Positions 15,055 to 18,378 of a stretch of 49,734 nt of DNA are shown piece by piece. The position numbers and the translations under genes were made by a program. Position 1 is the stretch's first letter; each line of letters begins with the position of its first letter. The stretch comes from Eubacteriaceae bacterium (GTDB taxonomy: Bacteria; Bacillota; Clostridia; Eubacteriales; Alkalibacteraceae): assembly GCA_013335935.1 (NCBI GenBank), contig JAAXUP010000008.1:1-49734 (forward strand). The letters are read 5' to 3'. Under the pieces are notes generated by a model that was not told where the DNA came from, ran no database searches, and saw only the letters and a program-made list of their open reading frames with translations.

Positions 15055-15322
15055 ATGTCGTGCACCCAACTTCGAATACAGCCATCAAGCGTTACCAGAT
15101 CAGCCAGCTCAAATCAGGTAGACCCGCGGCACATAGAAATCCCAGCTTACCGCTGCTTCCTTCCGGACCTGACGGGGTTCACAAGTATCTATTGCACAGG
15201 GCCCGACTCTCAACACCACTTTATCTGGGCAGACCTTAACAGCTGCAGCCTAGGTCGGGAATTCAACCCTGCTACAGCGGATTGCAGGTACAGGGCACCG
15301 CTAGTTCCCCGTCTAGCACGAC
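15055..15322 (-). ncRNA. ffs: Signal recognition particle RNA (large, Gram-positive type)
   Basis: The minus strand holds the universal SRP domain IV core GTCAGGTCCGGAAGGAAGC, followed by AGCGGTAAGC. The molecule starts GTGCTAGACGGGGAACTAG and CGGTGCCCTGTACC, the 5' Alu domain seen in Bacillus and Clostridium SRP RNAs, and its ends can pair (GTCGTGC with GCACGAC). The length of about 268 nt fits the Alu-containing class. Exact ends are inferred from that pairing. It scaffolds Ffh for membrane targeting, and lies upstream of dnaX as in many Firmicutes. Confidence 0.95.
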
Positions 15323-17464: not shown

Positions 17465-17493
17465 TTGACAACCCCTTTTCACATCTGTATAAT
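17465..17493 (+). promoter_or_regulatory. Consensus sigma-A promoter of tRNA-Ser
   Basis: Perfect TTGACA, a 17-nt spacer and perfect TATAAT. The -10 ends 22 nt before the mature tRNA 5' end. Confidence 0.92.
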
Positions 17494-17515: not shown

Positions 17516-17606
17516 GGAGAGATGTCCGAGCGGCCGAAGGAGCACGCCTGGAAAGCGTGTGTACGTCAAAAGCGTACCGAGGGTTCGAATCCCTCTCTCT
17601 CCGCCA
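17516..17606 (+). tRNA. tRNA-Ser (anticodon GGA)
   Basis: A 91-nt type II tRNA with acceptor stem GGAGAGA/TCTCTCC, encoded CCA, long variable arm (GTACGT...GCGTAC) and T-arm GGGTTCGAATCCC. The anticodon loop CTGGAAA gives GGA (17550-17552), reading UCC and UCU. It has its own consensus promoter and terminator. Confidence 0.98.
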
Positions 17607-17620
17607 TTTAATGAAAACAA

Positions 17621-17649
17621 ACGTCTGCTAAGATAGCAGGCGTTTTTTT
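17621..17649 (+). terminator. Intrinsic terminator of tRNA-Ser
   Basis: ACGTCTGCT / AGCAGGCGT stem (one G-T pair), short loop and seven T. Confidence 0.9.
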
Positions 17650-17662
17650 AATGTGCTGATAT

Positions 17663-17808
17663 AGGAGAGGGATTCGAACCCCGAGGGGGTGAGCTGCGTT
17701 AAGTCAATGTGGTAAATCCACATTGATAGCTGCGAAGTCCGAGTACTGCAGAGCAGTGCGACGGACATAGATGAGCAAGAAGTGCTCAGCTGTTCCCTCT
17801 CTCTCCGC
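17663..17808. repeat. Cloverleaf-like element whose ends match the tRNA-Ser 3' end
   Basis: The outer arms GGAGAGGGA and TCCCTCTCTCTCC can pair, helped by GAGCTG/CAGCT. Inside are three hairpins: TCAATGTGG/CCACATTGA (17704-17726), GTCCG...CTGC/GCAG...CGGAC (17737-17766) and GAGCA/TGCTC (17774-17788). The right end repeats the last 16 nt before the CA of tRNA-Ser (TCCCTCTCTCTCCGCC). The left part, read on the minus strand, contains GGTTCGAATCCCTCTCC, a T-arm copy. It could be a mobile structured repeat, an attachment-site scar, or an RNA. Confidence 0.6.
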
Positions 17809-17868
17809 CCTTATAAACAAGATCCGCGCCTTTGGCGCGATTCAAGTAGTGCTAAGGGGCGAACCCTC

Positions 17869-18378
17869 TTATTTTTTCACCAGGATCTTTTCGATTTCTG
17901 CGATGTACATGGTATGGAAATCTTTGTCAGGGTACCACTCTTCGTCCACACCTTCTACGGTGAAACATTCCGGTTGATATGCCTGGGAATACAGCTTTTT
18001 ACAGATCACTGCCATATTGGCTTCTTCAAAAAAAGGTGTGTCACCTTCGTGGACCACGGTAAGTCCAGATTTACCAATTTTATCTTCATCCCTGCCAGAA
18101 ACCGAACCAATATAGCCCAGCTGCTTCTTGAAGTTTTTCTCAAGAAACGATAGGGAGAATGTACTTGCGGCATCCACAAATTCTTTTGTGTATCTTTGAG
18201 GACGAATAACAATAAAAACAACATTTTTTGACCACATTACTCCAAGTCCTCCCCATGCTGCAGTCATGGTATTCACTTTCCCATCCTTCTCTGCAGTAAT
18301 AAGCATCCAGTCCACCCCAATCAGCTTAAATGGATTTTCATCAAATTGCTCCGGTGTTATTTCTTTGAACTTTTTCAT
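17869..18378 (-). CDS. Flavin reductase family protein (FMN-binding split barrel)
   Basis: A 169-residue protein of the flavin reductase-like domain family, which bind FMN and often reduce it with NAD(P)H or serve as flavin-binding redox proteins. Family features are the opening PFKLIGVDWMLITAEKDGKVNTMTAAWGG, the central VVFIVIRPQRYTKEFVDAASTFSLSFL and a later SGRDEDKIGKSGL. GAGGG precedes the ATG. A GC-rich hairpin after the stop (CGCGCC/GGCGCG near 17825) may act as its terminator. The partner is unknown. Confidence 0.85.
   Translation of the reverse strand: MKKFKEITPEQFDENPFKLIGVDWMLITAEKDGKVNTMTAAWGGLGVMWSKNVVFIVIRPQRYTKEFVDAASTFSLSFLEKNFKKQLGYIGSVSGRDEDKIGKSGLTVVHEGDTPFFEEANMAVICKKLYSQAYQPECFTVEGVDEEWYPDKDFHTMYIAEIEKILVKK

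Follow-up and report, generated by a model that had tools for sequence, protein, structure and literature searches.

TLRs have been known since 1978 and are described for E. coli and Enterobacterales; E. coli K-12 carries 22 of them at ten loci, each repeating over 18-19 bp at its 3' end the 3' end of the tRNA or rRNA gene that precedes it, and they had no known function (PMC8144298). The same paper gives read-through expression for three TLRs behind rRNA operons, with no known function for the others, and mentions that a stringent-response claim for tyrT was retracted (PMC8144298). RrA, RrB and RrF bind Hfq and CsrA (PMC8144298), and regulation or a decoy role in tRNA processing has been proposed for them. 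In Actinobacillus, Northern blots detected RtT RNAs (PMC4986893).

In our comparison, the E. coli tyrT/tyrV repeats are tandem units ending in the tRNA-Tyr 3' end, with which their left arm GGGGAAGGAU can pair, and the arg repeat behind argV has a left arm GGGAGGAU for which the right tRNA copy is likewise a possible partner. The repeat at lysV, a RefSeq feature named 'RtT sRNA' that matches the Rfam RtT model with 47.3 bits, consists of a terminator (T1), the inverted T-arm GATTCGAACCTGC together with the hairpin ACCUGCAGCAGGU, then the core, an exact tRNA-Lys 3' end, and T1 duplicated as T2. A megablast search with the lysV region matched 5,375 of 5,426 E. coli genomes, 1,901 of them with a place covering at least 80% of it, where a lower coverage is not absence by itself: the RtT feature is still present in H6 and H8, which reach 77%. 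In contrast to these, strain WCHEC025970, with 225 bp at lysV vs 381, has an exact empty site, 156 bp shorter.

Anatomy of the unit behind tRNA-Ser(gga)

The window, i.e. the whole stretch of 49,734 nt from a Eubacteriaceae bacterium that was analysed here, carries an element at 17664-17809 on the plus strand, directly behind tRNA-Ser(gga) and between two terminators (Table 1). The gap from the end of the tRNA to the element is 57 nt on the same strand, as given by the sequence and ARAGORN, and this element, like most of the relatives examined, follows a tRNA gene directly, in the position described for TLRs, which lie behind tRNA or rRNA genes. The left end GAGAGGGATTCGAACCC is, over 17 nt, the exact reverse complement of the tRNA at 17581-17597 (GGGTTCGAATCCCTCTC), and the right end TCCCTCTCTCTCCGCC is the 16-nt 3' end of tRNA-Ser without its final A, the terminal bases of the element being CCGCCC vs CCGCCA in tRNA-Ser. 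The agreement of 18-19 bp with the 3' end of the upstream gene that characterises TLRs is found here as well, the window copy being slightly short at 16 nt and changed in its last base.

In the predicted fold an outer helix (GGAGAGGGA/UCCCUCUCU) encloses four internal hairpins, forming a five-way junction, and the plus strand reaches -68.1 kcal/mol (z -6.45), a value that none of 200 shuffles equalled, the minus strand folding more weakly (-55.7 kcal/mol, z -3.96). A sequence-only reading of the locus had described a cloverleaf-like element with tRNA-derived ends behind tRNA-Ser, and sequence and fold bear this out: the 16-nt copy at the right end and the inverted T-arm at the left end are both there, at coordinates that were right to within 1-2 bases, and the outer pairing also stood. 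The four-way junction with three hairpins did not, the hairpin ACCCC-GAG-GGGGU having been missed.

The unit between the direct repeats holds no gene. The genes around the element are metabolic, its neighbours being dxr, a flavin reductase-like gene and an aldo/keto reductase, and no integrase was present among the five neighbouring proteins tested. The window also contains, at 15058-15321 on the minus strand, a large bacterial SRP RNA gene (Rfam RF01854, 207.8 bits). From the empty site at the tRNA-Arg of a relative, described below, terminator T1 is probably part of the inserted unit.

Table 1. Features of the tRNA-Ser(gga) locus in the window, from promoter to second terminator
Feature	Position	Strand	Basis
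Promoter of the tRNA-Ser unit, TTGACA-N17-TATAAT	17465..17493	+	12/12 consensus match
tRNA-Ser(gga), host gene	17516..17606	+	ARAGORN; Rfam tRNA
Terminator T1, between tRNA and element	17619..17645	+	terminator scan
P1 5' strand, partner is the right copy UCCCUCUCU	17664..17672	+	fold
Left arm: inverted T-arm copy and four acceptor-side bases	17665..17681	+	sequence; tracking in 61 loci
Hairpin a, ACCCC-GAG-GGGGU	17678..17690	+	fold; alignment A2 columns 2-14
Hairpin P2, long inner stem 17703-17727, conserved GUGA and GAAG at its flanks	17693..17733	+	fold; covariation
Hairpin P3 (GUCC...GGAC)	17737..17766	+	fold; helices 4 and 5 of the covariation analysis
Variable hairpin P4	17767..17792	+	fold
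Right copy of the tRNA-Ser 3' end, 16 nt, CCA to CCC	17794..17809	+	sequence; 15/16 over the last 16
Terminator T2, behind element	17853..17871	+	terminator scan

By anatomy, the window element is a TLR and not a member of RF00391. No known Rfam family matched it at gathering, the only matches up to E 5 being of chance level; the RtT model (RF00391) found nothing in the window's genome at E<=1, nothing in the window and L034 elements at E<=5, and nothing in 14 loci at the gathering threshold. In the opposite direction, our core model R2, defined below, scored 9.9 bits (E 0.29) where the lysV repeat lies and in its orientation, and 14.4 bits (E 0.033) on the opposite strand, and thus gave no convincing match.

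The lysV TLR resembles the clostridial element in its place behind a tRNA after a terminator, in its inverted T-arm, in a hairpin that reuses this inverted T-arm, in a structured core, in the copy of the tRNA 3' end, in the repeated terminator and in having an empty allele, whereas the core sequence and the hairpins differ, as do the hosts, Enterobacterales vs Clostridia. The RtT left arm at tyrT/tyrV pairs with the tRNA 3' end like that of the clostridial element, but is without the T-loop part. RrA, RrB and RrF, like the window element, lie between two terminators, and their expression is by read-through (PMC8144298); unlike the clostridial element they are linked to 5S rRNA, bind Hfq and CsrA, and have no tRNA arms. 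Common descent of the clostridial and E. coli repeats is only possible, because neither covariance model finds the members of the other group significantly, and convergence is just as possible.

Occurrence among genomes and tRNA genes

A DNA search of 61 genomes of the window's relatives matched eight, and the real elements among these are found behind tRNA-Ser, tRNA-Gly and tRNA-Arg, with ends copied from the respective tRNA, although in the Alkalibacter copy (L005) the right end is gone. The cultured Alkalibacter mobilis also has a copy, on contig NZ_JADNRK010000016.1 (L088). A pattern made for the left end gave 7 matches in five of 67 genomes of the order, the reversed control giving none, and was present in five of 391 genomes of a class sample. 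In a collection of 84,980 species genomes it matched 78 stretches, nearly all of them from rumen or gut Clostridia. A complete tRNA lies at most 400 nt upstream in 62 of the 84 pattern-match rows, two rows being duplicates of others, and the isotypes concerned are Arg, Lys, Ser, Pro, Gln, Gly and Ala; among the other 22 rows are some that lie at the end of a contig, some that are the second copy of an array, and some that are preceded by a tRNA 3' half.

Two covariance models of the core were also used, R2, built from exact rows only with the left arm represented by AACCC only, and an earlier model, R1, that likewise includes only AACCC from the left arm. R2 matched 22 of 148 genomes of a Clostridia sample (E<=0.001) and nine of the 67 genomes of the order (E<=0.01), with up to 10 matches per genome, and the element also occurs in many rumen Oscillospiraceae. 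Within the order, a complete same-strand tRNA was found upstream in 21 of 29 R1 matches, and the same was the case for 15 of 28 further R1 matches examined; some of the 13 loci without one are contig ends, arrays, or placed behind a tRNA 3' fragment. The R1 matches add Leu, Trp, Glu and Met to the host types, together with further Pro, Ser and Lys types, the isotypes hosting elements overall being Arg, Lys, Leu, Pro, Ser, Gln, Gly, Ala, Trp, Glu and Met. The window's genome has a single copy by the model searches, while 8, 6, 10 and 7 matches were obtained in the multi-copy relatives G018, G007, G075 and G177, respectively.

Outside the Clostridia, two Coriobacteriia loci (L063 and L065) have the same left end, L065 also with a tRNA-like right end that would extend the kind to Actinomycetota. 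A weaker model match (L110, G038:C243) lies behind a tRNA fragment in a repeat of different make-up (CCCCTGTCACGAAGAGGTGCGAGG), which may be a further type or unrelated. Pattern matches in Omnitrophota, Anaerolineales and Dietzia (L052, L060, L090) had neither right copy nor core by eye and were treated as chance. A phage origin was considered and rejected: the pattern found two stretches in a viral collection, of which one (L099) is a tRNA-Arg with an element near a contig end and the other (L098) has no such element by eye.

Arms matched to the host tRNA and a covarying core

The right end agrees with its own tRNA at 14 or more of 16 positions in 54 of 61 loci, and the mean match over the first 42 loci was 15.7 to the own tRNA vs 9.1 to other tRNAs. 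The 7-nt T-loop is copied inverted in 58 of the 61 loci (mean 30.1 and maximum 41 of 61 with shuffled labels), a tracking that is tested only by those loop positions that vary and by the 12 loci found with a model, because 49 of the 61 were found by a pattern demanding a T-arm-like left end. Loops other than TTCGAAT, which is the commonest, were tracked in 17 of 19 cases, the two clear misses among the rarer T-loops being Trp copies. The tracking extends beyond the T-arm by about 4 nt towards the acceptor end, whereas at the opposite border of the T-arm it breaks off sharply; at these four acceptor-side positions agreement with the own tRNA is 0.69, 0.62, 0.49 and 0.39, vs 0.34, 0.36, 0.24 and 0.22 for other isotypes. 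The T-loop part of the left arm has no pairing with the right copy, and its tracking therefore points to the tRNA itself as template or partner. By eye, hairpin a varies together with this part of the left arm, the Pro and Lys copies having ACCUUAAGAAGG and ACUCUAAGAGAG and most copies ACCCUGAGAGGGU.

In the covariation set of 22 exact rows, 98.5% of 654 cells pair, and 15 of the 30 pairs are changed on both sides, in 61 such cells; none of 500 shuffles was as high, and the slid controls reached a maximum of 6 pairs and 8 cells. The unpaired GUGA and CGAAG are invariant or nearly so. G-T cells on the plus strand number 71 vs 6 A-C cells, a count that leans towards the plus strand, being made on an RNAalifold structure that permits G-U. 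By these data, selection maintains the fold of the core, on the strand that has the sense of the tRNA.

Two other readings of the fold were tried and set aside. A tRNA-like RNA on the minus strand, which reads as an acceptor-like 5' strand, hairpins and a T-arm, is disfavoured by the weaker fold and the helix variation. An internal terminator is not a general function, the P2 stem being terminator-like in most rumen copies and not in the window.

Empty sites, arrays and the proposed spread of the unit

One relative (G004) has an element behind tRNA-Arg(acg), and in two others (G005 and G001) the same tRNA adjoins the terminator that follows the right copy in G004. The net difference between G004 and G005 at this place is 200 bp, with a direct repeat of 21 bp, and the terminator next to the tRNA-Arg in G004 is part of the extra unit; the flanks of the two genomes agree upstream and close downstream and differ further downstream. 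From this alignment, insertion in G004 rather than loss is likely, although precise deletion between the direct repeats in G005 and G001 could also account for the empty sites. For the tRNA-Ser of the window itself the comparison gave no clean empty site: G001 is without the element there but differs in its downstream flank. In a comparison of G018 with G007 at the Leu(tag) and Pro(ggg) loci, G007 has an element-free allele at Leu(tag), without a shared downstream flank. G004 also carries, on contig C37 (L142), a second and different tRNA-Arg gene, followed by a terminator and flank near-identical to those of tRNA-Arg(acg), which suggests an older duplication of tRNA downstream regions.

The window element is, very probably, a tRNA-linked repeat of a clostridial type, which seems to sit at tRNA genes as a small unit matched to its host tRNA. 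The unit at the 3' end of the tRNA gene has the order T1 terminator, inverted T-arm, structured core and tRNA 3'-end copy; the tRNA keeps an intact 3' end and a terminator, the old terminator becoming T2, and many different tRNA genes are followed by related cores, flanked in each case by two ends that fit the tRNA concerned. A transcript started at the tRNA promoter would mostly end at T1, and read-through would yield an element RNA closed by P1, in which the left arm pairs with the second tRNA 3' end, this RNA ending at T2 and being trimmed at its tRNA-like 3' end. The T1-element-T2 layout fits such read-through transcription and processing with the tRNA. The unit itself may spread by inserting as a short piece of DNA, and the tRNA at the new site would serve as the source of its arms or as the sequence to which they are corrected, the left arm being rewritten for example by template switching between inverted repeats and the right arm by recombination between direct repeats, which is in our view the simplest idea of the rewriting. 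A bolder alternative would have the left arm pair with the T-arm during insertion. The regenerated tRNA end and terminator would keep the load on the host low.

It is possible, if unlikely, that the element is instead a processed trailer RNA useful to the host, acting in regulation or as a decoy in tRNA processing, which is passed on together with its tRNA and rarely copied elsewhere. The strong structural conservation with its nearly invariant unpaired motifs would agree with this, as would the protein binding of RrA, RrB and RrF cited above (PMC8144298) and the clustering of tRNA labels on the core tree. On the tree of 38 cores the tRNA label changes 16 times, the minimum possible being 7 and the shuffled mean 22.4, with none of 200 shuffles as low; moves between tRNAs are hence infrequent, since the labels cluster. 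The 16 changes themselves speak for the main reading, in which the unit moves between tRNA genes, and so do well supported core clades, one combining Ser(gct), Gln(ctg) and Arg(ccg) hosts and another Lys, Ser, Arg and Pro hosts. The trailer RNA is opposed by the patchy presence within one genus, where G004 and G005 have the element behind tRNA-Ser and G001 does not, and by varying copy numbers, arrays, truncated copies and empty alleles both in the relatives and in E. coli, which give the look of a dispensable repeat.

A further explanation, which we regard as improbable, is that ordinary tandem duplication or slippage at tRNA genes produced an immobile unit whose arms are kept alike by gene conversion. 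Arrays do consist of tandem units with a shortened last copy, and in 13 of 42 loci the stretches that follow the two tRNA ends share 30 or more of 40 bases, so that the terminator is repeated too at those 13 loci; in 10 of the 42 at least 20 bases directly after CCA are identical. However, duplication alone cannot carry a core to a new tRNA, related cores are found behind unrelated tRNAs, and neighbouring copies within one array can have different cores and spacers (L029, L040, L118/L124). In L029 and L040 the first unit, behind tRNA-Ser(gga), has a core of a second type (GGGATTCGAACAAGGAGGGAG...) between ends that match the tRNA in the same way, the common type being in the same array; there are therefore several core families with the same layout.

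Integrases that target tRNA genes leave a direct repeat of the tRNA 3' end. An attR scar of a lost prophage or integrative element at tRNA-Ser is highly improbable: it would account for the direct repeat (16 nt in the window) and for the large elements that the same tRNAs also carry in some genomes, with tRNA 3' halves upstream of the repeat, but not for a gene-free unit of about 200 bp without an integrase among its five tested neighbours, for the same covarying core in dozens of genomes behind different tRNAs, or for an inverted T-arm, which is foreign to a normal att repeat. Integrative elements at att sites resemble the clostridial unit in that the tRNA 3' end is restored on insertion and a direct repeat of it remains, and differ from it in the same features of size, gene content, inverted T-arm and shared core. 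Seven loci (L062, L037, L071, L073, L079, L023 and L108) have upstream only a tRNA 3' half starting near the anticodon, which would fit the crossover of a larger integrative element in the anticodon loop, and the same tRNA genes seem to host both kinds.

The sequence-only reading had offered an attachment-site scar, a mobile repeat with tRNA termini and a structured RNA. The first is unsupported as the main reading, whereas the second gains from the homologues behind many tRNAs and from the empty sites, and the third from the covariation; the search it proposed for the core next to other tRNA genes did find homologues, and the element is not a single occurrence.

More tentatively, such repeats could form a genome-wide class of very small mobile units that contain no genes and can settle at any tRNA gene: the folded strand would recognise the near-universal T-arm through its complementary left arm, both arms would be rewritten from the new host on insertion, and the unit would regenerate the tRNA 3' end and supply a terminator, the same strategy being used in Clostridia and Enterobacterales with unrelated cores. 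No publication on TLRs in Clostridia was found in the literature searched, whose coverage leaves out most subscription journals, and this widespread Clostridia branch of TLRs is apparently undescribed. With a Clostridia-wide class that has a covarying core, at least 11 tRNA isotypes tracked and precise empty sites, the TLR kind is much wider than Enterobacterales. The minimal TLR unit is now defined as a terminator, an inverted T-arm, a core and a tRNA 3' end, and the spread of the units and the matching of their arms to the tRNA become testable questions.
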